Part shown: in pieces, positions 12,703-37,135 of the stretch
Numbering within the stretch: position 1 is the stretch's first letter
How the letters are laid out: each line of letters begins with the position of its first letter
Assembly: GCF_025147325.1 (NCBI RefSeq)
Contig: NZ_CP102262.1
Span: 3,348,001 to 3,412,000 of the forward strand
Direction: 5' to 3'
From: Bacteroides stercoris ATCC 43183
GTDB taxonomy: Bacteria; Bacteroidota; Bacteroidia; Bacteroidales; Bacteroidaceae
Length of the DNA stretch: 64,000 nt
Notes under the pieces: model-generated
Database searches by the model: none
Told to the model about the DNA's origin: nothing
Seen by the model: only the letters and a program-made list of their open reading frames with translations
Translations under genes and position numbers: made by a program

Positions 12703-12786
12703 GTTCCGCCACGGGGTAAATTTTGTTCCACCACGGAGAAAGTTCTGTTCCACCATGGCGGAATGGAATTTACTCCATGGCGGAAC
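12703..12786 (-). repeat. 22-bp repeat array (copy A) upstream of the HU-HTH gene
   Basis: GTTCC-type units begin at 12703 (GTTCCGCCACGG), 12725 (GTTCCACCACGG) and 12747 (GTTCCACCATGG), exactly 22 bases apart. The third is palindromic and continues into CGGAAT, and an inverted unit CCATGGCGGAAC ends at 12786, again 22 bases from the last inverted half. Read toward the gene, the units are NNGGCGGAAC. The array ends 91 bases before the ATG at 12612. A homologous array lies at 37052-37135 before another gene. Confidence 0.9.
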
Positions 12787-12803
12787 AATCTGGCATTAGG
12801 AAG

Positions 12804-12834
12804 TAAAGATACTGCTATTTTGCCGGATAAGCAA
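12804..12834 (-). promoter_or_regulatory. candidate promoter of the HU-HTH gene
   Basis: On the minus strand TTG (12832-12834) lies 20 bases before TATCTTTA (12804-12811), one base off the TAnnTTTG consensus. If used, transcription starts near 12797 and the 22-bp array is in the mRNA leader. Confidence 0.4.
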
Positions 12835-12874
12835 TAAAAGCTACAAAAAAAGAGAATAATAATTCCGCCTGCCG

Positions 12875-13561
12875 TCACAGCGCTTTCCAGAACTTCTGGA
12901 AATCCCGGTAGCGCCCGTAACATACCAATCGGTCGCCCGCCTGTATCCGGTCATCATCCGGCAGTTCGTTCACTACATCATGCTCGGTGAAAGAGATGCC
13001 CAGGCAATTCTTCAAAGTCTCGGCACGCTTCAGAGCAAGCAGTTTCAACCCGAACTCGCTGTCAAGCTTCAGTTCATTTACATTGTAGCCTATAAATTTT
13101 TCGGGCACAGTAAAATTCACAACGTAGTAATTGGAATCCACCCGGAACGTTTCGATGTCGGCACCAAACTCAAGCAGATGAACCAGTCCGCGGGCCGCAT
13201 CCTCCTCAGGAGTAAGGATACGATCCAGGCCGAAAGCCTCCAGCACCGAACGGTGCACCCCGTCGATAGCCCTTGCATAGATGCGTTTCACCTTTTTCTG
13301 TTTCAACAGCGCCACCACCCGGATGGAAGCGCCGAAATTCTCGCCGATAGCGACAATAACGACATCGACACTATTCAAAGGAAGCACGGACAAAGCCTGC
13401 CCGTCGGTTGCATCAATCACAAAGGCGGTTGCCACCTTGTCCTTCAAACTATCCACACGGCCGGCACTGATGTCCGCACCTATCACCTCATGTCCCAAAG
13501 CCGAAAGCTCCTCGGCAAGCACATGACCGTAATTACCCAAACCGATAATAATATATTTCAT
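12875..13561 (-). CDS. trkA: Trk/Ktr potassium uptake regulatory subunit (RCK protein)
   Basis: A 228-residue cytoplasmic protein that gates the TrkH channel. It has an N-terminal Rossmann fold (IIGLGNYGHVLAEEL, acidic D in GADIS at the end of strand 2) that binds NAD or ATP/ADP, and a C-terminal TrkA-C/RCK-C domain (FTVPEKFIGYNVNELK to LVCYGRYRDFQKF). I start at ATG 13561 (MKYIIIG). This is the short, KtrA-like form rather than the duplicated E. coli TrkA. It lies 45 bases downstream of its channel gene. Confidence 0.9.
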   Translation of the reverse strand: MKYIIIGLGNYGHVLAEELSALGHEVIGADISAGRVDSLKDKVATAFVIDATDGQALSVLPLNSVDVVIVAIGENFGASIRVVALLKQKKVKRIYARAIDGVHRSVLEAFGLDRILTPEEDAARGLVHLLEFGADIETFRVDSNYYVVNFTVPEKFIGYNVNELKLDSEFGLKLLALKRAETLKNCLGISFTEHDVVNELPDDDRIQAGDRLVCYGRYRDFQKFWKAL

Positions 13562-13606
13562 AATCAATCAATGTTAGCATTTCACACACCTGTTTCCAAA
13601 TCTCAC

Positions 13607-15436
13607 TTAGTTAATGATAATCTGTCCGCTCGGATACTGGTACTTCGTATGTTTTTTCTGCTTGATGATGCCGAGCATCAGTGTTATAAGCCCCACACGT
13701 CCGACAAACATTAAAAGCGCCACCAGCAACTTGCTGTCGCTGCCCAGCAAGGGAGTGGCATTCAGGCTGGAGCCGACCGTACTGATGGCCGAAACACATT
13801 CAAAGGTAATAGCAAGCAGGGATAGTCCCGGCTCCAGGATACTGATGATGAAGACAGACACGAACAGCACTCCGAACGACATCACCACTGTAGCATTGGA
13901 ACGTCGGATAGAGTCGTGCGACAACTCACGCCCGAACACCTCCACCCGCTCCGTGCCGCGCAATACCGCCACAAGATTCAGCACCACAACCGCAAAAGCG
14001 TTCACTTTGATACCGCCTGCGGTGGACTGCGAACCGCCGCCAATCCACATAAGAATAAGGTAGAGCAATAAAGTCTGTACCCCCAGGCCGGCTAAATCCA
14101 CACTGGAAAAACCCGCCGTACGGGGACAGGCAGCATTGAAAAACGCCTGTGTCCACTTATCGGCAACCGACATCCCCGCAAAAGACGCGTTCCACTCAAA
14201 AAAAGCGATACCGGCCGTGCCCACCGCCAAGAGCAGGAAGGTAACAATCAGCACAATACGCGTATTCAGGTTATAAAGATGGTAGAAACGGCGGCCGTCC
14301 CACTCCCATGTATGCAAAAATCGCCAGAAACGGCGTATATGATAAAGGATAATGTCCTTGAAGTTCACCAATATGGGGAAACCGATACCGCCCAGAATAA
14401 TCAGCAGTGAAATGTATATATAGAACGGGTTATGCCCCTTCATCAGCAACGGATTGCCCAAATTGCCCGGCAAGGTGGAAAACCCAGCATTGCAGAATGC
14501 CGATATAGAATGAAAAGCCGAAAACGCCAGCTCTTCGTGCACATCCATCCCCATTGTACCATGAATATCGCTCCAGATGGCAAACGTACCTATCCCCTCT
14601 ATCACCAATGTAAAGCCAAGGATATACACCAGTGTGGACAACAGGGAATTCAAAGAATTGGAACTGACCATATCGCGCACCACCAACTGATTATACAAAG
14701 AGGTATTCCCCATGAAGAACATCGCGAAGAAACTTGTCAGCGTCATCACCCCCAGACCGCCAATCTGAATCAGCAGAATGATGATTACAAAACCCGTTGT
14801 CGTGAAAGTGGATGCCACGTCTACCGAAGTCAGTCCCGTCACACACACCGCACTGGTGGAAATAAACAGCGAATCCACCCACGAGATGCCCGCCACCGTA
14901 GAACGGGGAAGCATCAGCAACCCTGTCCCTATGAGTATGATAATGAAGAAACTGACCGCCAGGATAAGCGAAGGGTTTGTCCGTCGCCCCAGCAACCGTA
15001 CCAGTCCATACGACAGATTCAGGAAAGACAGCACCAGCAGCAATACAAGATGATAGGCCTTGCCGTTCAGAAAATCCCAGACTGCCTGCACGGCGCCTTC
15101 CACTTCCGGGCGATGAAAGATAACCGGAACCAGCGTCAGATAAAGCAGAAAAGTCAATATCCAGGTCAGCATACTGAAAGTCTGCCTCGTATCTTTATAC
15201 TCCAACAGAATATGTAAGGATATATCAACCAGAAAAACAATCCACACACCATGGTACAGACGCTGCAATTGGTGAGCCTCTGCCGCCGAAATGGTAAATC
15301 CGTGTTCGTATACCAGACCGACAATCAGCAGGATAGACGCCAGGTACGTCAAGGCTGTCATTACTCCCAACGCCACGCGTATATAGGGATGAATCCATTT
15401 ATTCTGGTACAAAAAGAACTTATGATAGAGCTTCAT
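13607..15436 (-). CDS. trkH: Trk/Ktr potassium uptake channel subunit
   Basis: A 609-residue integral membrane protein. The four pore repeats typical of TrkH/KtrB are visible, with selectivity-filter glycines in TSAVCVTGLTSVD, ISAFCNAGFSTLP, NAACPRTAGFSSV and VSAISTVGSSLNA. An extra N-terminal membrane region of about 150 residues precedes the core, as usual in Bacteroidetes. It takes up K+ with H+ or Na+. It is cotranscribed with the RCK subunit 45 bases downstream. The 137 bases to the divergent trpB-like gene hold promoters for both directions. Confidence 0.92.
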   Translation of the reverse strand: MKLYHKFFLYQNKWIHPYIRVALGVMTALTYLASILLIVGLVYEHGFTISAAEAHQLQRLYHGVWIVFLVDISLHILLEYKDTRQTFSMLTWILTFLLYLTLVPVIFHRPEVEGAVQAVWDFLNGKAYHLVLLLVLSFLNLSYGLVRLLGRRTNPSLILAVSFFIIILIGTGLLMLPRSTVAGISWVDSLFISTSAVCVTGLTSVDVASTFTTTGFVIIILLIQIGGLGVMTLTSFFAMFFMGNTSLYNQLVVRDMVSSNSLNSLLSTLVYILGFTLVIEGIGTFAIWSDIHGTMGMDVHEELAFSAFHSISAFCNAGFSTLPGNLGNPLLMKGHNPFYIYISLLIILGGIGFPILVNFKDIILYHIRRFWRFLHTWEWDGRRFYHLYNLNTRIVLIVTFLLLAVGTAGIAFFEWNASFAGMSVADKWTQAFFNAACPRTAGFSSVDLAGLGVQTLLLYLILMWIGGGSQSTAGGIKVNAFAVVVLNLVAVLRGTERVEVFGRELSHDSIRRSNATVVMSFGVLFVSVFIISILEPGLSLLAITFECVSAISTVGSSLNATPLLGSDSKLLVALLMFVGRVGLITLMLGIIKQKKHTKYQYPSGQIIIN

Positions 15437-15513
15437 AAATATATCGGTTAATGAGACATGGCAAACTTAGACAAATCTGCCCTTATAAACAAAAAACAAT
15501 GGAAAAAAGAAAT

Positions 15514-15540
15514 TGGTTTAAAAATAATAGCTACATTTGG
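15514..15540 (+). promoter_or_regulatory. candidate promoter of the trpB-like gene
   Basis: TACATTTG (15533-15540) fits the Bacteroides -7 box; TTG at 15514-15516 is a possible -33 at a short 16-base spacing. Transcription would start about 25 bases before the ATG at 15574. Confidence 0.5.
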
Positions 15541-15573
15541 ACACAGAATCACTTTTAATTTATAATAACCACT

Positions 15574-16941
15574 ATGAGCAACAAAACAAAAAGATTCATC
15601 CTTCCGGAAGAAGAAATTCCACATTACTGGTATAATATACAGGCCGATATGGTGAACAAGCCCATGCCGCCACTCAACCCCGCCACCAAGCAACCGCTGA
15701 AAGCGGAAGATTTGTATCCCGTTTTTGCAGAAGAGCTCTGCCGCCAGGAACTCAATCAGACCGATGCCTGGATTGAAATACCCGAACAGGTGCGCGAAAT
15801 GTACAAATACTACCGAAGCACTCCGCTGGTGCGTGCCTACGGACTGGAAAAAGCGCTGGGTACACCGGCACATATCTATTTCAAAAACGAGAGTGTGAGC
15901 CCGATGGGGTCTCACAAACTGAACTCCGCCATACCGCAGGCCTACTATTGCAAGCAGGAGGGTGTGACAAACGTCACCACCGAAACCGGAGCCGGACAAT
16001 GGGGAGCTTCGCTGGCTTATGCCGCCCGCCTCTTCGGGTTGGAAGCCGCCGTATACCAGGTAAAAATCAGCTATGAGCAAAAGCCTTACCGCCGCAGTAT
16101 CATGCAGACCTTCGGTGCGCAGGTAACTCCTTCTCCCTCCATGTCCACCCGTGCCGGAAAAGATATTCTGACCGCTCACCCCAACCACCAGGGTTCGCTG
16201 GGCACGGCCATTTCCGAGGCCATCGAGCTGGCACGAACCACGCCCAACTGTAAGTATACGCTCGGTTCCGTATTGAGCCACGTCACTCTGCACCAGACTG
16301 TAATCGGCCTGGAAGCCGAAAAACAAATGCAAATGGCCGGCGAATATCCCGATATGGTCATTGCCTGCTTCGGAGGCGGTTCCAACTTCGGAGGCATCGC
16401 ATTCCCATTTATGCGCCACACCATCCTCGAAGGCAAAAAAACACGGTTCATTGCCGCCGAACCGGCATCCTGCCCGAAACTGACACGCGGCAAATTCCAA
16501 TACGACTTCGGCGATGAAGCCGGATATACCCCGCTACTGCCGATGTTTACCTTAGGACATAATTTCGCTCCCGCCAACATCCACGCCGGCGGTCTGCGCT
16601 ATCACGGTGCCGGCGTCATCGTATCGCAACTGCTGAAAGACGGCTATATGGAAGCGACGGACATCAAACAACTCGAATCGTTCGAAGCCGGCTGCCTTTT
16701 CGCACAGGCAGAAGGAATCATCCCTGCACCGGAGTCCTGCCACGCCATTGCAGCCACTGTACGCGAAGCAAATAAATGCAAGGAAACGGGCGAAGAGAAA
16801 GTCATCCTGTTCAACCTGTCCGGCCATGGCCTCATCGATATGGCATCGTACGACAAGTACCTTGCCGGCGATTTGCAAAACTATGAACTGACCGACAACG
16901 ATATCCGGAGAAATCTGGATGAAATAGGCAATCTGGTCTAA
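15574..16941 (+). CDS. trpB: tryptophan synthase beta chain, type 2 (TrpB2)
   Basis: A 455-residue PLP enzyme of the TrpB2 group, longer at the N-terminus than TrpB1. The Schiff-base Lys is Lys115 in MGSHKLNSA, the phosphate-binding loop is GGGSNFGG, and ETGAGQWG carries the catalytic Glu. It joins indole and serine to make tryptophan. It stands alone here, without trpA, as TrpB2 genes usually do; an indole-salvage or related serine-lyase role is possible. Its stop codon overlaps the stop of the convergent ClC gene (16938-16941), so there is no terminator between them. Confidence 0.9.
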   Translation: MSNKTKRFILPEEEIPHYWYNIQADMVNKPMPPLNPATKQPLKAEDLYPVFAEELCRQELNQTDAWIEIPEQVREMYKYYRSTPLVRAYGLEKALGTPAHIYFKNESVSPMGSHKLNSAIPQAYYCKQEGVTNVTTETGAGQWGASLAYAARLFGLEAAVYQVKISYEQKPYRRSIMQTFGAQVTPSPSMSTRAGKDILTAHPNHQGSLGTAISEAIELARTTPNCKYTLGSVLSHVTLHQTVIGLEAEKQMQMAGEYPDMVIACFGGGSNFGGIAFPFMRHTILEGKKTRFIAAEPASCPKLTRGKFQYDFGDEAGYTPLLPMFTLGHNFAPANIHAGGLRYHGAGVIVSQLLKDGYMEATDIKQLESFEAGCLFAQAEGIIPAPESCHAIAATVREANKCKETGEEKVILFNLSGHGLIDMASYDKYLAGDLQNYELTDNDIRRNLDEIGNLV

Positions 16942-18515
16942 TAGATATTTGCCATACTGACGAGCGGTTCATAGAGTTTCTCTATGTCCTGCGAATCCAT
17001 TTCAATCTGCACCTGGTCTCCCGGAATCAGACTTGTTTCCGCAGGGACCAGGTTTTTTCCATCCCTATGCACATTGATGATAACACAGCGTTCGGGCAAG
17101 GAAAGCTCGCTTACTGCCTTGCCGTCGAAGTAAGAACCGGTCATGACTTCCACAGACAGCGTATACCGGTTTTCTTCACGGAAATCGGGAGAGTTAATCA
17201 TATCCTCGTATAAGATTACGTTGAAAGACTTCATCTGGAGCAGCTCCGTAAAATAATACGTCAAACCGCCTACCACCACCGAGGGATAAAAGACTTCGAA
17301 GTGTCCGGTTATCTCCGTTATCAGCACAATTGCCGTAAGCGGTGTACGCTCAATGGCCACCAAAAATGCCGACATGGATATCAGCATGACATAAGTGATA
17401 TTTGGGGGCTCGATAATGCCGTACTTTACAGCGACCAGTCCTACAAGCTGCCCCAACAGTCCGCCCGTCACCAAAGTGGGAATAAAGTTACCACCCGGCA
17501 AGCCTGAAGACACGGAGCACACCGAAAACCCGAAATGCAACAGCATGACGGCAAGCACCCACATTATTTCCGTACTGCCGTTCTGCGCCTGTTGCAGCAA
17601 AAACTGCTCGCCGCCACCGGTCAGGTTTACCTGCATCAACGAGATAATGTAGGCAACCAGTACCAAATAAAACATCTTGATATATACCGGAGACTTGACC
17701 TTAGAATATACCCGCTTGAACGAAATCATAAGCACAGAGTATATCTTGCCGGCAATGGAAATGATAACAGCCAACAAAAGGAAATACTTCATCCGGACAA
17801 GAAAAGTCAAAACAGGTTCCGACACCTCAATCAGATGATAAGGGTTCACGGGAAAAACCAAACCGGCAACCGCTCCTGCCACTACACCCGCCAACAACGT
17901 AGTAATGGCTGTCTTAGGAGCATCGAAACGTTCAATGGATTCGATAACAATCAATGAAGAGGCCAATGGAGCAGCAAAAGCAGCCGCAAGCCCCGCCCCA
18001 GCTCCTGCTGCCAGCAACTGCTTGCGCTCGCCCTGCAGAATATGCGTCCATCGGGACACGAGACTGCCGATATAGGAGCCTATCTGTACAGAAGGCCCCT
18101 CACGCCCCAATGACAATCCGGCAGCCACAGAAAGAATTCCACCAGCGAATTTGGAAACCAGCTCCACAAACGGGTGTTTATAGGTTATGCGTCCGTTGAT
18201 TACCCCGCGCGTCTGCGGAATGCCGCCGCCACTGATAAGAGGCATCCTGCCTACCAGAAAGGACACAAACATCAGAATCCCCCAAAACAGCAAAAACAGG
18301 AGTATATGCCAGTACCAGGCAGGGCGGGATGCGAAAAAGTCGCTGCGGATATGTAGCAGGAAATAAAGCAGATAGTGATAACAGACCGCAATAAGCCCTG
18401 TCAGCAATCCCACAATCATGCTGACAAAATAAAGCCGCGCATCTACCAACTTCAACTTCCAGATATGCCAGCCGCGAACCGTTTTCCAATTCTTTATTTT
18501 CTGAAAAAAACGCAT
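16938..18515 (-). CDS. ClC-type chloride channel/antiporter with C-terminal RCK-C domain
   Basis: A 525-residue protein. The first ~430 residues are the ClC membrane core with about ten or more helices; the gating Glu139 is in GREGPSVQIGS and the anion-site loop is SGLPGGNFIP. The selectivity motif normally read GSGIP is GGGIP here (residues 96-100), so the central Ser is Gly. The last ~85 residues are a TrkA-C-like domain (VEVMTGSYFDGKAVSEL) that may bind a small ligand and regulate transport. It is separated by a divergent/convergent trpB from the Trk genes. Whether it exchanges Cl-/H+ or only conducts cannot be told from sequence. Confidence 0.88.
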   Translation of the reverse strand: MRFFQKIKNWKTVRGWHIWKLKLVDARLYFVSMIVGLLTGLIAVCYHYLLYFLLHIRSDFFASRPAWYWHILLFLLFWGILMFVSFLVGRMPLISGGGIPQTRGVINGRITYKHPFVELVSKFAGGILSVAAGLSLGREGPSVQIGSYIGSLVSRWTHILQGERKQLLAAGAGAGLAAAFAAPLASSLIVIESIERFDAPKTAITTLLAGVVAGAVAGLVFPVNPYHLIEVSEPVLTFLVRMKYFLLLAVIISIAGKIYSVLMISFKRVYSKVKSPVYIKMFYLVLVAYIISLMQVNLTGGGEQFLLQQAQNGSTEIMWVLAVMLLHFGFSVCSVSSGLPGGNFIPTLVTGGLLGQLVGLVAVKYGIIEPPNITYVMLISMSAFLVAIERTPLTAIVLITEITGHFEVFYPSVVVGGLTYYFTELLQMKSFNVILYEDMINSPDFREENRYTLSVEVMTGSYFDGKAVSELSLPERCVIINVHRDGKNLVPAETSLIPGDQVQIEMDSQDIEKLYEPLVSMANIY

Positions 18516-18621
18516 GGAGTATTCTTTGTTATCTGCATTCCCCTACAACAATTTCTCTCCTGTGAAGTTCTGAACCGGCTACCCGATTATATTTATTTTA
18601 CCCTCTCAGCATTGCTGATAA

Positions 18622-18667
18622 TAAAAAAGAATCTCCCCGTCAAGCCATACACAGAGAGGAGATTCTT
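18622..18667 (-). terminator. terminator downstream of the Spy-like gene
   Basis: AAGAATCTCC (18627-18636) pairs with GGAGATTCTT (18658-18667). A run of A to its left gives the U tract for minus-strand transcripts. The rest of the 18516-18746 gap shows nothing clear. Confidence 0.7.
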
Positions 18668-18746
18668 CGCTACATTCAAAAGCTAAGAACGGAGCTTTTT
18701 ATATTATGACACACTTATTATATTAAACCACAGTTTTTCCGGCAGC

Positions 18747-19298
18747 TTAAGACTTCTGTGCAGAACGTACCGGGTGTTTATGTTTTCCTTGCGCAACAGC
18801 CTGCTTTTTTCTGCGGTCAAATTCTTTTTTCAACTTGTTGGCATTGTTCTGTTCCGTCCGGTAAATCTTCATAATCTGTTTGGGAGAAAGTATTTTTCTG
18901 AATTCATCATAATACTTCTCACGCACATCCAGTATCTTACGACTTTGGGCAAAACGTCCTTTTATCTGCTGCTCCACCTCGGCATCCGTCAGCACCGGTT
19001 TAGGTTGCGACTTCATGCCTTTCTGCTCCGTTCCCTGCCCGGAGGAGAGCTGCCTGCGGTTCATCATTCTGCATTCGCGCAATTCCTTCAAATAGTTCTG
19101 ATAAACCGGTACAAATCTGGCAGCTGCGGCATCATCCAACATCAGTGTGTTCACCATCTGATTGGTCTGGCGTTCCATGAACTGCTCCGGTGTGTGACGT
19201 TGCCTTTTATCTTTATTCACCTGGTTTTGAGCAGAGAGACTGAACTGACCGCCTATCATAAGGCACGTCAGAAATACGTAAATGAATTTTGCTTTCAT
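18747..19298 (-). CDS. Spy/CpxP-like periplasmic protein
   Basis: A 183-residue secreted protein with signal peptide MKAKFIYVFLTCLMIGGQFS followed by LSAQ. The mature chain is almost all helix and strongly basic at the C-terminus. It carries EQFMERQTNQMVNTLMLDDA and ILSPKQIMKIYRTEQ, the second resembling the LTxxQ repeats of Spy/CpxP chaperones. It lies 28 bases after a small membrane anti-sigma-like gene and an ECF sigma gene, all on the minus strand. The arrangement suggests an envelope-stress output or feedback protein; that is inference. Confidence 0.65.
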   Translation of the reverse strand: MKAKFIYVFLTCLMIGGQFSLSAQNQVNKDKRQRHTPEQFMERQTNQMVNTLMLDDAAAARFVPVYQNYLKELRECRMMNRRQLSSGQGTEQKGMKSQPKPVLTDAEVEQQIKGRFAQSRKILDVREKYYDEFRKILSPKQIMKIYRTEQNNANKLKKEFDRRKKQAVAQGKHKHPVRSAQKS

Positions 19299-19326
19299 AA
19301 TTCTTCTTTTTTTTAAGACAATACTA

Positions 19327-19674
19327 TTAATTTAAAAATATATCGCTTTCGGAGAAGCTGACGAGCTCTTCCAGCTCCTCGTCCGACATTTCACGAATCC
19401 ATTTATCAGCAGGGGCCGCCGCCGTACAATTCCCGGTATCCAGCATCTGCCCTCCTCTATCACCTTCCCTGAAAAGAGACGGCATAAACAGAAAGCCGAC
19501 CAATGCCGCAGCTATGGCAATACCCGCAGAAACGGTTATCCACAAACGATGCCCTGCCGGCTTGCTACCATACGTATGTTTCCGCACATTACGCTGCATT
19601 TCGTCAAAGAAACCTTCGGGCACACGATAGGGAGTTTTTTTTCCTATATCATCAAAATCAAACTCTTTTTTCAT
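19327..19674 (-). CDS. small single-pass membrane protein, probable anti-sigma factor
   Basis: A 115-residue protein with a cytoplasmic N-terminal segment of about 43 residues (PYRVPEGFFDEMQRNVRKH), one membrane helix at about 44-66, and an acidic C-terminus of about 50 residues outside (EMSDEELEELVSFSESD). The gene starts 4 bases after the ECF sigma gene ends, which is the usual place for an anti-sigma factor. It is shorter than FecR-type anti-sigmas and has no zinc-binding motif. The role is inferred from position and topology. Confidence 0.6.
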   Translation of the reverse strand: MKKEFDFDDIGKKTPYRVPEGFFDEMQRNVRKHTYGSKPAGHRLWITVSAGIAIAAALVGFLFMPSLFREGDRGGQMLDTGNCTAAAPADKWIREMSDEELEELVSFSESDIFLN

Positions 19675-19678
19675 AATC

Positions 19679-20218
19679 TCAATTATTTAGTATGTACTCT
19701 TTAATCTTTTCCTTCGCATAATGATAATTCACCTTAAGCGTATCTGCCTTACCGTCGAGAATGTGGGCGATTTCCTCGTAATCAAGTTCATCATAGTAGC
19801 GGAGATTGAATATCAACCGTTGCTTCTCCGGCAATCTCAATATGGCTTCCTGGAACTTGACGGCCAACTCATTTTCATAGTCCACATAGTCGGAAGCCTT
19901 CAAACTGGAAATCAGGTTTTCCTGAATATCTTCGGTTGAAACGGTTTCCCGCCTTTTACGGCTATTCAACAAGCGGAGGCTTTCATTCGTTGCAATCCGG
20001 TAAATCCATGTGCTCAGTGAACTCTCGCAACGGAATTGCTCCCAATGCCTGTACACCTGAATAAAGACTTCCTGCAATACATCCTCTGCATCTTCGTGCA
20101 GCACTACCAAACGCCGTATATAATAATATATCGGTTCCTGAAAACATTCCACCAACAGTTGAAAGCCCTGTTCACGGTTGGATTTATATATTTGTCGAAT
20201 CTTGTTTTCGTTTATCAT
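19679..20218 (-). CDS. ECF-type RNA polymerase sigma factor
   Basis: A 179-residue sigma-70 family regulator with only regions 2 and 4. Region 2 is seen in EDAEDVLQEVFIQVYRHW and STWIYRIATNESL (core binding and -10 reading). Region 4 is in RLPEKQRLIFNLRYYDELDY followed by EEIAHILDG (the -35-reading helix-turn-helix). It heads a three-gene run with a membrane anti-sigma-like protein and a Spy-like periplasmic protein. It probably responds to envelope conditions and may drive its own operon; no conserved target sequence was identified. Confidence 0.9.
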   Translation of the reverse strand: MINENKIRQIYKSNREQGFQLLVECFQEPIYYYIRRLVVLHEDAEDVLQEVFIQVYRHWEQFRCESSLSTWIYRIATNESLRLLNSRKRRETVSTEDIQENLISSLKASDYVDYENELAVKFQEAILRLPEKQRLIFNLRYYDELDYEEIAHILDGKADTLKVNYHYAKEKIKEYILNN

Positions 20219-20298
20219 CAGTTCATCCGGGTTTTACTGGTTAGAAAGGAGAAATGGGAAGAAGTTAAATGAGATGGAGCGTATTTGTCGTTTATTAA

Positions 20299-20341
20299 CA
20301 AAAAAAGTCGGGGCTGCATCTTTACAAGACACAGCCCCGAC
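20299..20341 (-). terminator. terminator of the DUF4250 gene
   Basis: GTCGGGGCTG (20307-20316) and CAGCCCCGAC (20332-20341) form a perfect 10-bp GC-rich stem; the A run on the plus strand just left of it is the U tract for minus-strand transcripts. Confidence 0.85.
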
Positions 20342-20366
20342 CCATCTGTTTATAAGTTTACGGCAA

Positions 20367-20543: not shown

Positions 20544-20666
20544 AGTCACAATCTTTGTTTAAATTAAACACTAATACCGGGCGCAAAAATACAATAAAAT
20601 ATCATACGAAAGAGTATTATCCCTTGAAATCTGCAAGTTATCCATGCAAACGATTGAAACGACACG

Positions 20667-25994: not shown

Positions 25995-26068
25995 ACAAAG
26001 TAAGCAAAGATTATCTTAAAACCACTTACACACTGTCCGCTTTCCTCGAACGGACAATTTTTTGACTT

Positions 26069-26238
26069 CGTTTTGCAGGTCTTCTGACTTATTCCTGATG
26101 TATCACCTTCCCATTCTTCAAGAACAGTGGCATAAGTATTAATACATCTTTTACGGAACTTACAGCAGCGGGACTGTCCGGGACTTTCACCCGATTCCCT
26201 TTTCATCCTCCTCCTGAACAAGAGTGCAGAACAAAACG
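26069..26238 (-). ncRNA. cobalamin riboswitch
   Basis: On the minus strand the leader of the btu operon contains the conserved cobalamin-aptamer elements in order: GGGAATCGGGTGAAAGTCC, CCGCTGCTGTAAG, the B12 box TATGCCACTG, GGGAAGG, and AGTCAGAAGACCTGC. Outer stem P1 is CGTTTTG (26232-26238) with CAAAACG (26069-26075). Downstream, TTGTCCG and CGGACAG can form a hairpin with no U tract, so control of translation start seems more likely than termination. When cobalamin binds, btu expression should fall. Confidence 0.93.
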
Positions 26239-26242
26239 CCGG

Positions 26243-26250
26243 CAAAGATA
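26243..26250 (-). promoter_or_regulatory. -7 box of the btu operon
   Basis: On the minus strand TATCTTTG fits TAnnTTTG. The predicted start, about 7 bases on, falls at 26237, right at the first base pair of the riboswitch. No clear -33 box. Confidence 0.55.
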
Positions 26251-26277
26251 GGAATATATATAATAAGTCTATAAATC

Positions 26278-28603: not shown

Positions 28604-29836
28604 ATGAAATACAAATTATTAGTTCTTGACGTAGACGGGACACTTCTCAACGATGCCAAGGAAATCAGTAAACGGACTCTTGCTTCCTTACTTAAAGTGC
28701 AGCAAATGGGCATACGTGTCGCATTGGCTTCCGGAAGACCTACATACGGCCTTATGCCATTAGCCAAAACTCTTGAATTAGGCAACTATGGGGGCTTCAT
28801 CATCTCCTATAACGGTGGCCAGATAATCAATGCGCAAAATGGGGAAATCCTGTTTGAACGGCGAATCAATCCGGAAATGCTACCTTATTTGGAGAAAAAA
28901 GCACGCAAAAATAATTTTGCCATATTTACTTACCATGATGATACCATACTGACAGATAGTTCCGATAATGAACATGTCCGTGCCGAAGCCAATCTGAATA
29001 ATCTGAAAATCATTCAGGAAGAAGAATTTTCCACAGCAATAGATTTTGCACCATGCAAATGCATATTAGTCAGTAATGATGAAGAAGCATTGAAAGATTT
29101 GGAAGAGCATTGGAAAAAGCGTTTGGACGGAACGCTGGATGTTTTTTGCTCGGAACCTTACTTTCTGGAAGTCGTGCCCTGCGGAATTGATAAAGCAAAC
29201 ACCTTAGGCGTCCTATTGTCATATTTGAACATCGCCCGTGAGGAAGTAATCGCCATTGGAGACGGCGTATGCGATGTCAATATGCTCCAAGTTGCCGGTC
29301 TGGGCATAGCCATGGGGCATGCGCAAGACTCCGTAAAAGTTTGTGCCGACTATGTAACAGCTTCCAATGAAGAAGACGGTGTTGCCCAATCTGTAGAAAA
29401 ATTGATTCTGGCTGAAGTGCATGCTGCTGAAATACCTCTTGACCTGCTAAACGAGCGGGCACGCCATGCATTAATGGGCAACTTGGGTATCCAATACACC
29501 TATGCCTCGGAAGAACGCATAGAAGCAACCATGCCCGTAGACCACCGTACCCGCCAGCCCTTTGGCATTCTACACGGCGGTGCAACTCTTGCGCTTGCCG
29601 AAACCGTTGCCGGACTCGGCTCTATGATAACCTGCCAGCCCGATGAAATTGTGGTAGGCATGCAAGTCAGCGGAAACCATATTTCGTCCGCACACGAAGG
29701 AGATACCGTACGTGCGGTAGCGACTATCGTGCATAAAGGACGTTCATCTCATGTGTGGAACGTAGATGTATTTACTTCTACCAATAAGCTGGTTTCTTCT
29801 GTCAGAGTTGTTAACAGTGTTTTGAAGAAAAGATAA
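28604..29836 (+). CDS. HAD phosphatase fused to a hotdog thioesterase
   Basis: A 410-residue two-domain protein. Residues about 1-270 are a Cof-type HAD hydrolase: motif I LDVDGTLL (8-15), a cap domain, motif IV GDGVCDVNML (about 219). Residues about 275-410 are a PaaI/MenI-type hotdog domain with HGGATLALAETVAGLGS near 324, the catalytic loop of DHNA-CoA-type thioesterases. Cof-type enzymes dephosphorylate sugar phosphates or FMN-like compounds; the hotdog part likely hydrolyses an aromatic or other acyl-CoA, possibly in menaquinone synthesis. No men genes are nearby. The two domains read through without a stop. It ends 8 bases before the large helicase gene. Confidence 0.85.
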   Translation: MKYKLLVLDVDGTLLNDAKEISKRTLASLLKVQQMGIRVALASGRPTYGLMPLAKTLELGNYGGFIISYNGGQIINAQNGEILFERRINPEMLPYLEKKARKNNFAIFTYHDDTILTDSSDNEHVRAEANLNNLKIIQEEEFSTAIDFAPCKCILVSNDEEALKDLEEHWKKRLDGTLDVFCSEPYFLEVVPCGIDKANTLGVLLSYLNIAREEVIAIGDGVCDVNMLQVAGLGIAMGHAQDSVKVCADYVTASNEEDGVAQSVEKLILAEVHAAEIPLDLLNERARHALMGNLGIQYTYASEERIEATMPVDHRTRQPFGILHGGATLALAETVAGLGSMITCQPDEIVVGMQVSGNHISSAHEGDTVRAVATIVHKGRSSHVWNVDVFTSTNKLVSSVRVVNSVLKKR

Positions 29837-29844
29837 GTTGAGAT

Positions 29845-32800
29845 ATGCCAATATGGAGTAGACTCATAAACATCAGATATGCCATAGTAGATGTCGAAGT
29901 CGGCTTGAAAAATCATAAAATCCATGATATCGGAGCACTCCGCCATGATGGTGCTACATACCACAAAGCTTCAAAAAAGGAGTTATTTGAATTTCTCAGC
30001 GGCACGGATTATATATGCGGACATAACATCATTCACCATGATGCCAAATATCTATTCACAGACAAAACATGCCAATGGATTTTGGTCGACACGCTTTATT
30101 TATCTCCTTTGCTGTTTCCGGAACGTCCTTACCATAAACTTGTGAAAGATGACAAACTGATAAGTGATCAGATGAATAATCCGGTAAATGATTGCGAAAA
30201 AGCAAAAGCACTGCTATTGGATGAGATAGCACGCTGGCATTCGTTACCAGATGCAAAGCGCCGGTTATTTGCATCTTTATTAAAGGATAGGAAAGAGTTC
30301 GAAGGTTTTCTCAGTATGGTAGGTGCTGTATATACCAACAAAGGAATATCCGAACTGATCAGCAACCTCTATGTGAATAAAATATGCCAGCATGCAGAGC
30401 TTGACATGCTTATCAAACAATATCCGTGCGAACTGGCATACGCATTAGCCCTGATTGACACAATCGACCATCATTCCATTACTCCGGGATGGGTACTTTA
30501 CAATTATCCCAAAGTGGAATTTGTTATAAAACTTCTACGACACAACAGATGCAACGAAGGTTGTGTTTACTGCAACACCCAACTGGATGTACTACATAAC
30601 TTAAAAATATTTTTTGGATACGAACAATTCCGCACCTATGAGGGTGAGGCTCTTCAAGAACAAGCCGTTCAAGCAGCGGTAAAAGGCAAATCGTTACTGG
30701 CAATATTCCCTACTGGCGGTGGAAAATCGCTGACTTTTCAGCTACCGGCACTCATGTCCGGTCATTCGGTACATGGTCTTACGGTCGTTATCTCACCATT
30801 GCAGTCACTGATGAAAGACCAGGTAGATAATCTTGCCGACCGGGGAATTACTGATGCTGTAACCATTAATGGCCTATTAGACCCTATTACACGGGCACTA
30901 TCAATACAAAGAGTACAAAATGGGGAAGCTTCCCTCTTATATATAGCCCCCGAAATGCTTCGTTCAAAAACCATTGAGAAAATTCTGATGGCGCGCCATG
31001 TAGTAAGATTTGTGATAGATGAAGCACATTGTTTCTCTTCATGGGGACAGGATTTTAGAGTCGACTACCTTTATATTGGGAAATTCATCAGAAAATATCA
31101 ACAGAAAAAAGGATGCAAAGAACCAATACCTGTGTCTTGTTTCACTGCCACAGCCAAACAGAAAGTTGTGCAAGACATTCGCGATTATTTCAAACAGACA
31201 TTAAATTTAAATCTGGAATTGTATGCATCAACAGCCTCAAGAACAAACCTTCGCTATTCTGTCATACACGCTGAAACTGATGATGATAAATATTTAAAAT
31301 TAAGGAGACTTATAGCTGAGTCCGATAGCCCTACCATTGTTTACGTATCGCGCACTAAACGTACTAAAGAACTTGCTGTAAAACTGACTCGTGACGGTTA
31401 TAAAGCATTACCTTTCAACGGTAAGATGGAGTCAGAAGAAAAGATTGCCAACCAAGATGCATTTATGAACGACCAAGTACGCATCATTGTAGCAACATCA
31501 GCCTTCGGTATGGGAGTCGATAAAAAAGATGTCGGACTTGTAGTACATTATGACATATCCGATTCATTGGAAAACTATGTTCAGGAAGCAGGAAGAGCCG
31601 GTCGCGACCCTAAACTCAGCGCACGTTGTTATGTACTTTACAGCGACAATGACTTGGACAAGCATTTTATACTGCTGAATCAAACCAAATTAAGTATCAG
31701 CGAAATACAACAAGTATGGAAGGCCATAAAGGACCTTACCAGACAACGTATGAGAGTCAATTGTTCTGCATTGGAAATAGCACGGCAGGCAGGTTGGGAC
31801 GACTCCGTATCCGATATTGAAACCCGTGTTCGGACGGCATTGGCTACTTTGGAACAAAGCGGATACCTGATAAGAGGAAATAACGTACCCCATGTGTATG
31901 CTACGGGTATCACAGTAAAAAATATAGATGAAGCAAGAATGCGTATATCGGCATCATTGTTATTTGGCAGTGATGAAATAGAAAAGGCCGTTCGAATCAT
32001 CAAATCACTGATTTCACAGAAATATATTACCAAAGCTCAAGACTCAGAGGCTGAATCACGAATTGATTATCTGGCAGATATATTAGGAATCAGTAAAAAA
32101 GAAATAATATCTGTTGTAGAGCGCATGCGTCAAGAAGGCATATTGGCAGATAGCAAAGATATATCCGCTTATCTACAGGATACCGGAGACTCGGAACGAA
32201 AATCGCAGGCTCTCCTCGAACGCTTTGCAAAACTCGAACGATATATTCTTAACCACATTCCTGACGAATCTTTACAAACATCATATAAGCAACTAAATGA
32301 TAATGCCACAAACAGCGGAATCAATACATCCAAAGAAAAGGATATTCGGACATTGCTCTATTTCCTCTGTGTCAAAGGATACGTCAAAAAAGAAGAAGAC
32401 GCTTCCCATAATATAACAATCAGTCGCCAGACAGATTTCGATTCAACCATCAAACAGTTTGAAAAACGACTGGAAATAAGCCGTTTCACCATAGAATGGC
32501 TATACAAGTTAGTTGCCGATACGGAAAAAGAATGCTCACAAAACAAAACAGTCCAATTTTCCGTAGTAGAACTTCTAAATCAAATAAAGTCAAATCCCCA
32601 ATCTCTTTTTAGCGAACCCGACAAACTACAGTTGGAAGATGTGGAAGAAGCCCTTCTTTATCTATCAAAAATCGGAGCATTAAAGCTTGAAGGCGGTTTC
32701 CTTATTCTTTATAATGCTATGAATATTCAAAGAATAAAGGATAACAAATCAAGATATAAACAAGACGACTACCGGATGCTTAACGAATTCTACAAGCAAA

Positions 32801-34653
32801 AAATCCAGCAAGTACATATTGTAGGGGAATACGCCAATTTGATGGTAAAGGATTATAATGCAGCATTGCAGTATGTCCAAGACTACTTCCAGATGGACTA
32901 CAAAAAGTTTGTCGCAAAATATTTTAAAGGAGAAAGAGTAAGTGAAATACAGCGCAACCTGACTCCTCAGAAATACAAGCAATTGTTCGGTCAACTATCC
33001 AAACGTCAAATGGAAATTATTTCCGACAAGGAATCGCGCTGCATCGTTGTTGCAGCAGGTCCCGGCAGTGGAAAAACACGCGTACTGGTCCATAAACTTG
33101 CATCACTCCTATTACTTGAAGATGTAAAGCATGAACAGCTCTTAATGCTGACATTTTCAAGAGCGGCTGCCACGGAATTCAAACAGAGGCTTATGGAGCT
33201 GATAGGAAATGCTACCCATTTTATTGAGATAAAAACATTTCATTCCTATTGTTTTGACCTTTTAGGAAGAATAGGAAACCTTGAGGATGCCAAAGACATC
33301 GTCTCGAAAGCTGCCAAAATGATTAATCAAGGGGAAGTGGAACCAACCAAGATCGGTAAGACAGTACTTGTCATAGACGAGGCTCAGGACATGGGAAAAG
33401 AAGAATACGACCTTGTGAATGCCTTGATAGCCAATAATGAAGAGATGCGTGTTATAGCAGTGGGCGACGATGACCAAAACATTTATGAATTCCGCGGTTC
33501 GAATTCCCAATATATGTATCGACTGACACAAAATCCTGAAAGTAAGTTCATTGAGATGACTGAAAATTATCGCAGCACACATCATTTGGTAAATTTTGCC
33601 AATGAATTCGCTAAGAATATAGGCAAAAGAATGAAAAGCACCCCAATCATTTCAATGCGAAAAGAGAACGGATGGGTTGGAGTAACATATCATCAATCAA
33701 AGTATATGTATCAGCCACTGGTTGAAGAACTGCTTCATCAACGAGGAAGCGGGACCTCATGTGTGCTTACCCAAACAAACGAAGAAGCAGTCATTTTAAC
33801 GGCTCTTTTGCGAAAGCATGCCATAAACAGCAAATTGATACAATCCATGGACGGCTTCCTTTTCTGGAATATGGCCGAGATGAGATATTTTTTGAGATAT
33901 ATAGAGAAACGGATAAAAACTCCTTTAATTCCGGAAGAGTTATGGGAAAAAGCGAAGCATGTAACCTACACCACTTATGAAAAAAGTAAAAGCTTGACAT
34001 ATGTAAAGCGTTGCATAGAACTATTTGAACAAACCTATAAAGTAAAATACCATAGTGACTTCAAAGAATTTGTATTTGAATCATCAGTAGAAGATTTCTG
34101 TGACATTTCGGGGACAGATGTTGTAGTATCAACCATCCATAAAGCCAAAGGAAGAGAATTCGATAATGTGTATATGCTCATATCCGATAATTACTCAAAA
34201 GACGACCATCTTATGCGTCGATATTATGTAGGAATGACCCGTGCTAAAAATCAACTGTTTATACATACGAATGGCAACTGCTTCAATCATATAAGCGCTG
34301 ACAGACATTGTATCGACCGAAAAGAATATGCGATGCCCGAAGAAATAGTTCTGCAACTTTCCCACAAAGATGTCTTTCTGAAATTTTTTAAAGGACGCAA
34401 ACAAGAGATATTAGCATTAAGAAGCGGAGATTCTCTGATTTACAAGGACTCTGTTTTATATACAGCCTCAACCAATAAAGCGGTAGCAAAATTATCACAG
34501 AATATGCAAGCCACAATGTGTGAGTGGGAAAAAAAGGGTTATAAAGTGAGAGCTGCGTATGTCCGATTTATTGTAGCATGGAAATCTAAAGACTCCCCAA
34601 AAGATGAACCGGAAACAGCCGTCTTATTAGCAGACTTACTACTTTCATTATAA
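29845..34653 (+). CDS. exonuclease-RecQ-UvrD fusion helicase
   Basis: A 1602-residue protein with three enzyme modules. (1) Residues 1-125: DEDDh-type 3'-5' exonuclease, with VDVEVG (Asp16, Glu18), CGHNIIHHD (Asp66) and HKLVKDD/NNPVNDCEKA. (2) About 260-830: RecQ helicase, Walker A FPTGGGKS at 288, DEAHCFSSWGQDFR at 392, motif VI QEAGRAGRD, then winged-helix-like segments. (3) About 1045-1550: UvrD/PcrA helicase, Walker A AAGPGSGKTR at 1071, DEAQD near 1178, GDDDQNIYEFRG near 1207, STIHKAKGREF near 1429, YVGMTRAK near 1461. RecQ and UvrD both move 3'-5' on DNA. It is 8 bases after the HAD-hotdog gene and probably cotranscribed; it ends before a bidirectional terminator. Confidence 0.9.
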   Translation: MPIWSRLINIRYAIVDVEVGLKNHKIHDIGALRHDGATYHKASKKELFEFLSGTDYICGHNIIHHDAKYLFTDKTCQWILVDTLYLSPLLFPERPYHKLVKDDKLISDQMNNPVNDCEKAKALLLDEIARWHSLPDAKRRLFASLLKDRKEFEGFLSMVGAVYTNKGISELISNLYVNKICQHAELDMLIKQYPCELAYALALIDTIDHHSITPGWVLYNYPKVEFVIKLLRHNRCNEGCVYCNTQLDVLHNLKIFFGYEQFRTYEGEALQEQAVQAAVKGKSLLAIFPTGGGKSLTFQLPALMSGHSVHGLTVVISPLQSLMKDQVDNLADRGITDAVTINGLLDPITRALSIQRVQNGEASLLYIAPEMLRSKTIEKILMARHVVRFVIDEAHCFSSWGQDFRVDYLYIGKFIRKYQQKKGCKEPIPVSCFTATAKQKVVQDIRDYFKQTLNLNLELYASTASRTNLRYSVIHAETDDDKYLKLRRLIAESDSPTIVYVSRTKRTKELAVKLTRDGYKALPFNGKMESEEKIANQDAFMNDQVRIIVATSAFGMGVDKKDVGLVVHYDISDSLENYVQEAGRAGRDPKLSARCYVLYSDNDLDKHFILLNQTKLSISEIQQVWKAIKDLTRQRMRVNCSALEIARQAGWDDSVSDIETRVRTALATLEQSGYLIRGNNVPHVYATGITVKNIDEARMRISASLLFGSDEIEKAVRIIKSLISQKYITKAQDSEAESRIDYLADILGISKKEIISVVERMRQEGILADSKDISAYLQDTGDSERKSQALLERFAKLERYILNHIPDESLQTSYKQLNDNATNSGINTSKEKDIRTLLYFLCVKGYVKKEEDASHNITISRQTDFDSTIKQFEKRLEISRFTIEWLYKLVADTEKECSQNKTVQFSVVELLNQIKSNPQSLFSEPDKLQLEDVEEALLYLSKIGALKLEGGFLILYNAMNIQRIKDNKSRYKQDDYRMLNEFYKQKIQQVHIVGEYANLMVKDYNAALQYVQDYFQMDYKKFVAKYFKGERVSEIQRNLTPQKYKQLFGQLSKRQMEIISDKESRCIVVAAGPGSGKTRVLVHKLASLLLLEDVKHEQLLMLTFSRAAATEFKQRLMELIGNATHFIEIKTFHSYCFDLLGRIGNLEDAKDIVSKAAKMINQGEVEPTKIGKTVLVIDEAQDMGKEEYDLVNALIANNEEMRVIAVGDDDQNIYEFRGSNSQYMYRLTQNPESKFIEMTENYRSTHHLVNFANEFAKNIGKRMKSTPIISMRKENGWVGVTYHQSKYMYQPLVEELLHQRGSGTSCVLTQTNEEAVILTALLRKHAINSKLIQSMDGFLFWNMAEMRYFLRYIEKRIKTPLIPEELWEKAKHVTYTTYEKSKSLTYVKRCIELFEQTYKVKYHSDFKEFVFESSVEDFCDISGTDVVVSTIHKAKGREFDNVYMLISDNYSKDDHLMRRYYVGMTRAKNQLFIHTNGNCFNHISADRHCIDRKEYAMPEEIVLQLSHKDVFLKFFKGRKQEILALRSGDSLIYKDSVLYTASTNKAVAKLSQNMQATMCEWEKKGYKVRAAYVRFIVAWKSKDSPKDEPETAVLLADLLLSL

Positions 34654-34710
34654 CCTAAGATACATAATCCTCAATCCAAACAAATAAGGAAAACCATGCG
34701 GATAATAAGA

Positions 34711-34741
34711 AAAGCGTGCAACTCATTGAGCTGCACGCTTT
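34711..34741. terminator. bidirectional terminator between the helicase gene and dnaK
   Basis: AAAGCGTGCA (34711-34720) and TGCACGCTTT (34732-34741) form a perfect 10-bp stem with an 11-base loop, between two convergent genes. Confidence 0.85.
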
Positions 34742-34775
34742 TGCTTATTGTTTGTTATCTGTTTCCTTATCGGAA

Positions 34776-36695
34776 TCATTTGACTTCCTCAAAGTCAGCA
34801 TCCTGTACATTATCCCCATGCTTGCCATTATCCTGAGCACCGCCTTGCTGTCCTGCATTCATATCAGGACCGGCCTGTGCACCACCTTGAGCACCGCTCT
34901 GGGCATACATCTCAGCGCTTGCAGCTTGGAAAGCGGTATTCAGTTCAGCCATCGCAGAGTCAACAGCAGCTAAATCCTGTGCTTTGTGAGCATCTTTCAG
35001 TTTCTGCAAGGCAGCTTCAATCGGAGCTTTCTTGTCGGCAGGAAGCTTATCGCCCAGTTCCTTCAACTGATTTTCAGTAGTGAAAATCATTGAGTCAGCC
35101 TGGTTCAGCTTGTCAACTTTCTCACGTTCTTTCTTATCGGCTTCGGCATTTGCTTCGGCTTCGGCTTTCATCTTTTCGATTTCTTCCTTGCTCAAACCGC
35201 TGGAAGCCTCGATACGGATAGCCTGTTCCTTACCGGTAGCCTTATCTTTGGCAGATACTTTCAAGATACCGTTGGCATCGATATCGAATGTCACCTCAAT
35301 CTGAGGAATACCACGACGTGCCGGAGCGATACCTGTCAGGTTAAACTGACCGATTGACTTGTTCTGTGCAGCCATCGGACGTTCACCCTGCAATACGTGG
35401 ATAGTAACTTCCGTCTGGTTATCGGCGGCAGTAGAGAATGTTTCACTCTTCTTGCAAGGAATAGTCGTATTGGCGTCAATCAGCTTGGTCATTACACCAC
35501 CCATGGTTTCGATACCCATAGACAGCGGAGTAACATCCAGCAATACAACACCCTTGATTTCGTCCGTCAATACGGCACCTTGTACTGCAGCACCTACAGC
35601 TACTACCTCATCGGGATTTACACCCTTGGAAGGCACTTTACCGAAGAAATCCTCAACCAGTTTCTGTACAGCCGGTATACGTGAAGAACCACCTACAAGG
35701 ATAACCTCATCTATATCGGAGTTGCCCAAACCGGCATCGCTCATAGCTTTCTTACACGGTTCAAGACAAGCCTGAATCAAGTTGTGGGCCAAAGCTTCGA
35801 ATTTGGCACGGGTCAGCGTCTTAACCAAGTGTTTGGGCACACCGCCTACAGGCATAATGTACGGCAAGTTGATTTCCGTGCTCGTAGAAGAAGACAATTC
35901 AATCTTAGCTTTTTCGGCAGCTTCCTTCAAACGTTGCATAGCCATCGGATCCTGAGTCAGGTCGGCGCCTTCATCGTTCTTGAACTCTTGAACCAGCCAG
36001 TCGATAATTACCTGGTCGAAGTCGTCACCACCCAAGTGAGTATCACCGTTGGTTGACAATACTTCGAACACACCGCCACCGAATTCGAGGATAGAAATAT
36101 CGAATGTACCGCCACCGAGGTCGAACACGGCAACTTTCATATCCTTATGCGCCTTGTCGATACCATAAGCCAAAGCTGCGGCAGTCGGTTCGTTCACGAT
36201 ACGCTTTACTTCCAGACCGGCAATCTGACCGGCTTCCTTCGTAGCCTGACGCTGAGAGTCGGAGAAATAAGCCGGAACGGTGATTACGGCTTCCGTTACT
36301 TCTTGTCCCAGATAATCCTCAGCGGTCTTTTTCATTTTCTGCAGAATCATTGCAGAAATTTCCTGCGGAGTATAGAGACGTCCGTCAATATCCACACGCG
36401 GAGTATTGTTGTCACCTTTTACCACTTTATAAGGTACGCGAGCGATTTCTTTCTGAACCTGATCCCAGTTCTCACCCATGAAACGTTTGATAGAGAACAC
36501 GGTTCTTGTAGGGTTTGTGATAGCCTGACGCTTTGCAGGATCACCGATCTTACGTTCGCCGCCATCTACAAATGCCACTACTGAAGGAGTTGTACGCTTA
36601 CCTTCACTGTTTGCAATTACTACAGGTTCGTTTCCTTCGAATACAGAAACACAAGAGTTTGTTGTTCCTAAGTCAATACCAATAATTTTTCCCAT
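34776..36695 (-). CDS. dnaK: Hsp70 chaperone DnaK
   Basis: A 639-residue Hsp70. ATPase domain with [20 protein letters not shown] at the N-terminus, [13 protein letters not shown] and [11 protein letters not shown]; linker followed by substrate-binding beta domain ([17 protein letters not shown]) and a helical lid, ending in a Gly/Gln/Ala-rich tail with the conserved end DADFEEVK. It folds and refolds proteins with DnaJ and GrpE, neither of which is in this window. The upstream region carries an inverted repeat and a 12-base motif shared with clpB, which may be heat-shock control. It is monocistronic. Confidence 0.98.
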
Positions 36696-36811
36696 GATCG
36701 TTATTTTTTTATTTGTTATTATTCTGTTTCGCTGTCCGCCTCGTTGGCAGACGCCAATAAAAAGACAAACGCCGTGCCAAATTGTTCAAGGCGGCGGCAG
36801 ATTTATGAATG

Positions 36812-36835
36812 TGACAGTTTGTCTGTCAGTTTGGC
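36812..36835 (-). promoter_or_regulatory. candidate heat-shock control element of dnaK
   Basis: TGACAG (36812-36817) and CTGTCA (36823-36828) are a perfect inverted repeat with 5 bases between. Overlapping it, on the minus strand, is GCCAAACTGACA (36824-36835), which matches GCCAATTTGACA at 48832-48843 upstream of clpB at 10 of 12 positions. Distance to the dnaK ATG is 129 bases. Confidence 0.5.
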
Positions 36836-36900
36836 AGAATTAAATATATTTTTTCTGTCGGAAATTACCATTTGTTAATTTCTATCCCACTCAAAAGTCC

Positions 36901-36908
36901 TACTTTTG
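36901..36908 (+). promoter_or_regulatory. -7 box upstream of the MATE gene
   Basis: TACTTTTG matches TAnnTTTG. The nearest TTTG is 26 bases upstream, too far for a standard -33. If used it gives a leader of nearly 300 bases that includes the 22-bp array. Confidence 0.4.
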
Positions 36909-37051
36909 CCCCCGAAAAAGAAAAGATATTGTTTGAGGGATTCAAGAAAGCATGTTGGTTCTCTTTTTTCAGACTTTATCAGATTTTCTCTAAAGAAAGC
37001 TGATATAAAACCAAAACACTTTCTAAAAAGGAGCATTGCCAATATTTATCC

Positions 37052-37135
37052 GTTCCATCATGGTGGAACAGAATGTATCCCGTGATGGAACACAAGTTTC
37101 TCCGTGGTGGAACAAAAACTTCCTCATGGCGGAAC
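37052..37135 (+). repeat. 22-bp repeat array (copy B) upstream of the MATE gene
   Basis: Four units whose GGAAC ends fall at 37069, 37091, 37113 and 37135, exactly 22 bases apart. The units read ATGGTGGAAC, GTGATGGAAC, GTGGTGGAAC and ATGGCGGAAC. The first is a full palindrome, GTTCCATCATGGTGGAAC. The array ends 72 bases before the ATG at 37207. It is homologous to copy A at 12703-12786, and relative to the gene downstream both copies have the same orientation. Confidence 0.92.

Follow-up and report, generated by a model that had tools for sequence, protein, structure and literature searches.

Arrays of four phased dyads as predicted binding sites of the HU-HIG proteins encoded beside them in Bacteroides

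The 64,000-nt window of Bacteroides stercoris ATCC 43183 analysed here (contig NZ_CP102262.1; coordinates are positions within this window) contains two short arrays of inverted repeats. Array A (12703..12786, minus strand) lies between a trkA-type gene and a gene for an HU-HIG protein, in the presumed leader of the latter, and array B (37052..37135, plus strand) is a dispersed copy between dnaK and a MATE-family transporter gene. The likely explanation, in our judgement, is that the array is a private set of binding sites for the HU-HIG protein whose gene adjoins copy A, through which this protein would regulate its own gene and act at a few other loci. The first-pass annotation had already put forward this protein as a candidate binder. 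Comparative support for that proposal is strong, coming from the orthologs, the upstream arrays, array-protein similarity and one residue of the protein; binding itself is a prediction.

Arrays A and B are each 84 bp long and are made up of four slots of 18 bp, one every 22 bp; their ends are inverted, GTTCC on the left and GGAAC on the right. The full 18-bp palindrome occupies one slot per array, the third in A and the first in B, with forward units (GTTCCRYCAYGG followed by 10 bp) before it and reverse units after it. Because units run both ways around the palindrome slot, the common orientation relative to the downstream gene that had been claimed for the arrays is not well defined. The distances to the ATG, previously given as 91 and 72 bases, are 90 (A) and 71 (B). 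The presence of two arrays with 22-bp spacing was borne out: allowing one mismatch or fewer, GTTCCRYCAYGG matched 12 places in the window, ten of them inside the arrays, compared with 1.23 ± 1.00 matches in dinucleotide shuffles of the window, none of which reached 12 in 100 trials. Tandem Repeats Finder reported period 22 at arrays A and B and at no other place in the window.

The gene next to array A (11998..12612, minus strand) encodes a protein of 204 residues, the proposed array binder, with an HU domain and a presumed C-terminal winged helix. It matched PF18291 with 127 bits against a curated cut-off of 26.2, and the same family was matched by the second HU-HIG gene of the window, four paralogs and the one ortholog tested. 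We take the winged helix from the family description and from our reading of the sequence, whose C-terminal pattern resembles a helix-turn-helix; the domain search of this protein gave no separate C-terminal match, and a PDB sequence search returned two weak matches only, to designed constructs. Proteins of this kind are called HU-helix proteins below. The second HU-HIG protein (11310..11774, minus strand; 154 residues) has a glycine-rich tail and no array before its gene, A and B being the only arrays found in the window, which fits a role for the helix part. Related matches follow the HU-helix gene in other species too.

We compared genome sets with one genome per species. A protein search with the array-A HU-HIG protein found matches in 83 of 95 genomes of the genus, the number of matches to the HU-helix protein ranging from 1 to 18 in the genomes that had any. 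A four-slot array stood directly upstream of the gene in all 14 listed genus genomes whose ortholog was 67% or more identical; five of these arrays were of the TTTCC form and one was mixed. Paralogs down to about 32% identity were preceded by 22-bp arrays with quite different dyads, for example of the GTTCCACTATAGTGGAAC, GTCCGACAGCTGTCGGAC and GTTAGACAACTGTCTAAC types. HU genes were hand-picked among the matches listed, orthologs first and then high-scoring paralogs from many genomes; in this selection a generic array score of at least 90 was reached upstream of 53 of 54 and then 20 of 20 HU-helix genes (73/74), compared with 3 of 247 control upstream regions, the set remaining after removal of real arrays. 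Period 22 was top-ranked in 23 of 24 (the remaining one tied), 19 of 20 and 19 of 20 HU upstream regions, compared with 67 of 2000 random windows, which may themselves contain some real arrays. At the array-A locus of genome G022 the HU gene has been lost and the array is a 40-bp remnant; no match to the HU hidden Markov model was found in the 10 kb examined at this locus, and the best match elsewhere in the genome was at 38%.

The arrays also keep a fixed distance from a putative promoter. In the direction of the HU-HIG gene, TATCTTTA (12804..12811, minus strand) lies 17 nt before array A and is a -7-type box, presumably a promoter element judging by the Bacteroides consensus. In 47 of 51 HU genes (G138c, G079a and G140a left out) a box of this type preceded the array by 16-17 nt; 38 of these boxes read TAnnTTTG and nine TAnnTTT followed by A or C; the frequency of TAnnTTTG in random 70-nt windows further upstream was 12%. 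A later set had the box at 15-18 nt in 15 of 20 HU genes. The promoter of the HU locus is probably upstream of the array, which would then sit in the leader. At the MATE locus, TACTTTTG (36901..36908, plus strand), conserved in the alignment, is the likely -7 box 5' of array B; if it is a promoter element, as is probable, array B would likewise lie inside the MATE leader. An array at the gene's own locus, combined with this fixed box distance, is the arrangement expected of an autoregulated multi-site operator. The earlier suggestion of a multi-site operator or a structured mRNA leader fits both the box positions and the RNA folds described below.

Arrays and proteins were found to vary together. 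Across 51 of the 54 genes, array similarity correlated with protein similarity with r 0.725, whereas the largest value among 1000 permutations was 0.158. For dispersed arrays, the comparison was confined to arrays of exactly 84 bp and to 1 to 3 paralog arrays per genome. In all 37 cases the best match was the cognate HU array, ahead of every paralog array compared from that genome, and 33 of 37 matched their own genome's HU array better than the average of other genomes. Genome G062 has two dispersed arrays in the TTTCC form, as in its own HU array, and one of these precedes a 2-hydroxyacid dehydrogenase gene, as at locus IV described below. Within the protein, residue 173 is located in the presumed recognition helix (GRS-X-KQA). 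This residue is V in all five proteins with TTTCC HU arrays; in proteins with GTTCC, ATTCC or GTCCC arrays it is Y in seven and R in two, and it is A in one mixed case. Residues 171, 172 and 175 of the same stretch are also clade-specific, and other clade-specific residues are scattered over the whole protein. In the array unit, positions 2, 3, 5, 7 and 8 retain their dyad partners 17, 16, 14, 12 and 11, as expected of a dimer reading DNA, whereas the pairs 4-15 and 6-13 are not kept.

HU proteins are dimers, and the two helix-turn-helix domains of one dimer would therefore read one 18-bp dyad. Four such dimers could occupy adjacent dyads along the same face of the DNA, as 22 bp is about two turns. 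Bound to copy A, just 3' of the promoter, such a complex would regulate its own gene, most simply by repression; at dispersed copies, B among them, it may mark, bend or regulate the site.

We examined the layout and distribution of the arrays more widely. Exactly four slots were present in 42 of 44 arrays analysed (L055, L087, L099, L100 and the distant arrays were omitted), and the palindrome of these 42 was in an inner slot (second or third) 34 times and at an end 8 times. Conservation and symmetry continued outside the array for about 33 bp to either side, in 86 flanks; both this count and the pair counts given below rest on related sequences that are not independent. One array of Bacteroides rodentium (L055, 7698-7869) is enlarged to 172 bp with eight slots, and its near-identical units suggest recent slippage. 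The source genome (4.008 Mb, one contig) contains five GTTCC-core arrays, at 1472265, 1658618 and 2330323 and as A and B, together with six further exact GTTCCRYCAYGG matches that are lone units without an array. A first genus search with the GTTCC pattern matched 11 of 149 genomes, eight of them with three or more matches. This pattern overlooks arrays of the TTTCC form and, in G018, an HU array that is degenerate, and its apparent implication that other Bacteroides have no array was rejected on the existence of both. Wider dyad-pattern searches gave matches in 7 of 399 Bacteroidaceae genomes and 1 of 393 genomes of the order, counts from which arrays with other motifs escape. In the named collection 29 stretches matched: 16 from Bacteroides (gallinarum, propionicigenes, rodentium, muris, clarus and fluxus), seven in one Bacteroidaceae metagenome-assembled genome (MAG) and two in Prevotellaceae MAGs, these nine being related arrays, and four apparently unrelated ones from Streptomyces (three) and a Clostridia MAG (one). 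Related dyad arrays with 22-bp phasing were L054, L056, L061, L064, L065, L071, L078, L074, L075, L211-L215, L100, L216 and L217, from the Bacteroidaceae MAG, the Prevotellaceae MAGs, genus g17, G133 and another family of the order.

Several array sites are orthologous between species. They lie between trkA and HU; between dnaK and MATE, the place of array B, which is occupied in five other species (L083, L095, L106, L110 and L119); between a HAD hydrolase and rplU (locus III); between a 2-hydroxyacid dehydrogenase and an outer-membrane protein (locus IV); between citrate synthase and a steroid-dehydrogenase-like gene; and at other places. Open reading frame (ORF) calling around 54 arrays, distant ones included, found tandem ORFs on the two sides of 29, divergent ones around 19 and convergent ones around 6. 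At locus III the array lies 19-32 bp past the stop of the HAD hydrolase, and the likely rplU promoter is downstream of the array. The arrays had been thought always to precede genes, which these counts and locus III do not support, and judged by gene layout they are not always promoter elements. Nor do neighbours as varied as HU, MATE, rplU and the gene pair of locus IV, among others, support the coherent regulon that had been proposed.

A number of observations weigh against private binding by the adjoining HU-helix protein. The neighbours of dispersed arrays share no common function. The mirror pairing of the arrays covaries, beyond what DNA binding alone requires. Shared descent of an array and the gene adjoining it contributes to the array-protein correlation, which is also not monotone, as array similarity was 0.47 at protein identities of 0.5-0.6 and no higher than at 0.3-0.5. 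As the five proteins with V173 are relatives of one another, the match between residue and motif may represent one or two events, and in G131 the dispersed arrays L090 and L151 contain TTTCC despite the Y173 of its HU protein. One HU-helix gene of the 74 examined, G138c, had no array. In flanks of 2 to 10 kb, no HU-helix match was found beside the related arrays of G133, genus g17 (G164 and G292), G535, the Bacteroidaceae MAG RGIG4445 and two Prevotellaceae MAGs. In G073 (100 kb of a large Bacteroides genome), three further 22-bp dyad arrays with other motifs (L269 877, L270 1789 and L272 19128) match no compared HU array well and have no HU-helix gene adjoining; they are possibly dispersed arrays of other paralogs.

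Instead of serving as DNA sites, the arrays could act as RNA. In this reading the HU (and MATE) leader begins with the array, whose transcript would form a long hairpin; this hairpin would either be the target of the HU-helix protein or act by other means on translation, termination or mRNA stability. We consider this unlikely, although the array starts shortly after the -7-type box and several folding results favour it. Among 33 arrays, 90 cells of the hairpin pairing were changed on both sides, compared with 42.6 ± 4.8 in shuffles; mirror partners agreed at 13.3 of 17 positions, compared with 11.3 and 11.9 for non-mirror units (p 0.0005 and 0.03); and the RNA fold z was below -3 in 61 of 73 HU arrays. 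Concerted evolution of the units can, however, imitate part of this covariation. In 7 of the 73 HU arrays z was above -2 and the 22-bp phasing was still kept, and DNA binding was therefore preferred over the RNA version. No Rfam family reached its gathering score at array A or B. Further points against an RNA function are the likely rplU promoter downstream of the locus-III array, the arrays between convergent ORFs, and the 8 of 42 four-slot arrays with the palindrome at an end slot, in which three units run in one direction. A separate RNA hairpin in each slot was likewise not favoured, as 4-15 and 6-13 are unpaired and only 341 of 2061 predicted pairs fell within a slot.

We also assessed how the arrays have changed between genomes. 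The array core does not distinguish genomes, as 302 of 2000 permutations reached the observed value. The spacer (unit positions 13-22) does distinguish them, with 0.727 for non-orthologous arrays of the same genome vs 0.685 for sister genomes, a result reached by none of 2000 permutations. Across two subclades, the spacers of orthologous arrays (0.484) were no more alike than those of non-orthologous arrays (0.512). Some arrays appear to have been inverted in place between species with their flanking genes unchanged: L012 and L097 are 87% identical when flipped and 64% when compared directly, array A of the window and L082 are 86% identical flipped and 77% direct, and the same appears to hold for locus II between the subclades. 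Position is thus kept while sequence and orientation turn over.

Such in-place flips, together with the species-specific loci, the concerted change within genomes and the symmetrical conserved ends, would suit a mobile or selfish short repeat with inverted ends, resembling a miniature inverted-repeat transposable element (MITE) or a repetitive extragenic palindrome (REP) or bacterial interspersed mosaic element (BIME), to which the HU link is incidental or a later co-option. So would L084 in G031, a duplicate of the locus-II element at a site that is array-less in G000, G131, G138 and G018. We nevertheless regard a mobile origin as quite improbable. Copies per genome are few, their positions are conserved across species, and the existence of one motif per HU paralog is left unexplained. 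Gains and losses of arrays do occur, but the homology of L084 extends past the symmetrical end into the flank, so it shows no clean element boundary. No usable empty site was found for L115 or L149, and L105, considered as a transposed copy, was rejected as such, being locus V adjoining rearranged DNA. The arrays L103, L104, L105 and L115 are situated at junctions where the neighbouring DNA differs between close species through swapped flanks or missing genes.

An origin from REP-associated tyrosine transposases (RAYTs) in particular was rejected. RAYT (PF01797) was absent from six of nine genomes with arrays or the remnant (G000 and five of eight others), and the three RAYTs close to locus III have palindromes of other kinds around them and no array units. 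These Y1 (RAYT-type) transposase genes lie downstream of the rplU region in three species (L207 4766-5414, L208 about 3106-3447 and L209 4933-5571). Their own nested palindromes are of the GCCCTGAAAGGGC, CCCGGGGT..ACCCCGGG and AAGGCTGAAAGCCTT types, and in two of the three, 20-bp minisatellites lie beside the transposase. None of this is related to the 22-bp arrays.

That some other regulator reads the arrays, with HU-helix genes merely among its targets, is very improbable: several array neighbours are indeed other regulators, of AraC, LuxR, LysR and HTH-cupin types, and binding of the HU protein to its array is so far predicted from sequence, but the paralog-specific motifs would need one extra regulator per HU paralog that always targets it, and the motif varies with residue 173 of the HU-helix protein.

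Starting from binding by the adjoining HU-helix protein, a broader and more tentative picture can be drawn. Bacteroides may run mutually orthogonal address systems, in which each HU-helix paralog would read its own four-dyad array, control itself and act at a few dispersed copies, perhaps as a nucleoid protein of defined sequence specificity that bends DNA and bridges sites far apart on the chromosome. In this picture the specificity would have been switched repeatedly, through changes in the recognition helix and genome-wide rewriting of the arrays.

Profile matches bore out the gene names assigned earlier, HU-HIG as above and those around array B. The MATE-family transporter gene 3' of array B (37207..38622, plus strand) matched PF01554 (MatE), and the gene for a cyclic nucleoside monophosphate-binding (cNMP-binding, Crp-type) regulator (38555..39175, plus strand) matched PF00027. 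On the other side of array B, its divergent neighbour dnaK (34776..36695, minus strand) matched PF00012. The trkA-type gene 5' of array A (12875..13561, minus strand; start from ORF calling) matched PF02254. Elsewhere in the window, a cobalamin riboswitch is present at 26057-26251 on the minus strand (RF00174, 107 bits).

HU proteins are mostly regarded as weakly specific DNA packagers. If our proposal is true, Bacteroides have many sequence-specific nucleoid-type proteins, the target site of each paralog is predictable from its own upstream region, and the genus offers a natural series of protein/site pairs for reading a specificity code. The role of arrays such as copy B, before the MATE-Crp pair, becomes directly testable.

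The HU-HIG family reportedly originates from a 2017 paper in Cell Cycle. In Pfam, HU-HIG (PF18291) is an HU domain fused to a winged helix-turn-helix, an immunoglobulin or a glycine-rich motif; the proposed binder is a member of this family, whose Pfam description does not mention private upstream arrays. No description of such arrays was found in the literature searched, with most subscription papers falling outside the search. Among known short repeats, REP/BIME elements with their RAYTs are similar in being grouped short intergenic palindromes (PMC3733652); the arrays here differ in their few copies, fixed 84-bp layout and lack of RAYT in most of the genomes tested. The arrays also call to mind ParB/parS-like sites. 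The Porphyromonas gingivalis MITE/minisatellite BrickBuilt (PMC4596501) has 23-nt direct repeats in variable number, a length of 84 to 991 nt, a leader and tail, and IS5-like terminal repeats. It resembles the arrays in being built of intergenic short tandem repeats with conserved flanking ends, in a relative of Bacteroides. We rejected a BrickBuilt-type MITE on the features given there (PMC4596501), as in place of 23-nt direct repeats, leader and tail, and terminal inverted repeats like GAGACCTTTGCA, the arrays have 22-bp slots, inverted ends, other flanks and the HU-helix link.

The nearest experimental precedent found is the P. gingivalis HU protein PG0121, which preferred a 77-bp inverted repeat of the capsule locus over an unrelated 77-mer (PMC3969353). 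Here too an HU protein is tied to a large inverted repeat near a promoter. PG0121, as described there (PMC3969353), is an ordinary HU, about 10 kDa in size, with no added helix-turn-helix, and its preference is largely for DNA structure. Its repeat, in the same account (PMC3969353), is a single long inverted repeat upstream of another gene's operon, whereas the arrays of the HU-helix genes comprise four phased dyads placed in what would be the HU gene's own leader.

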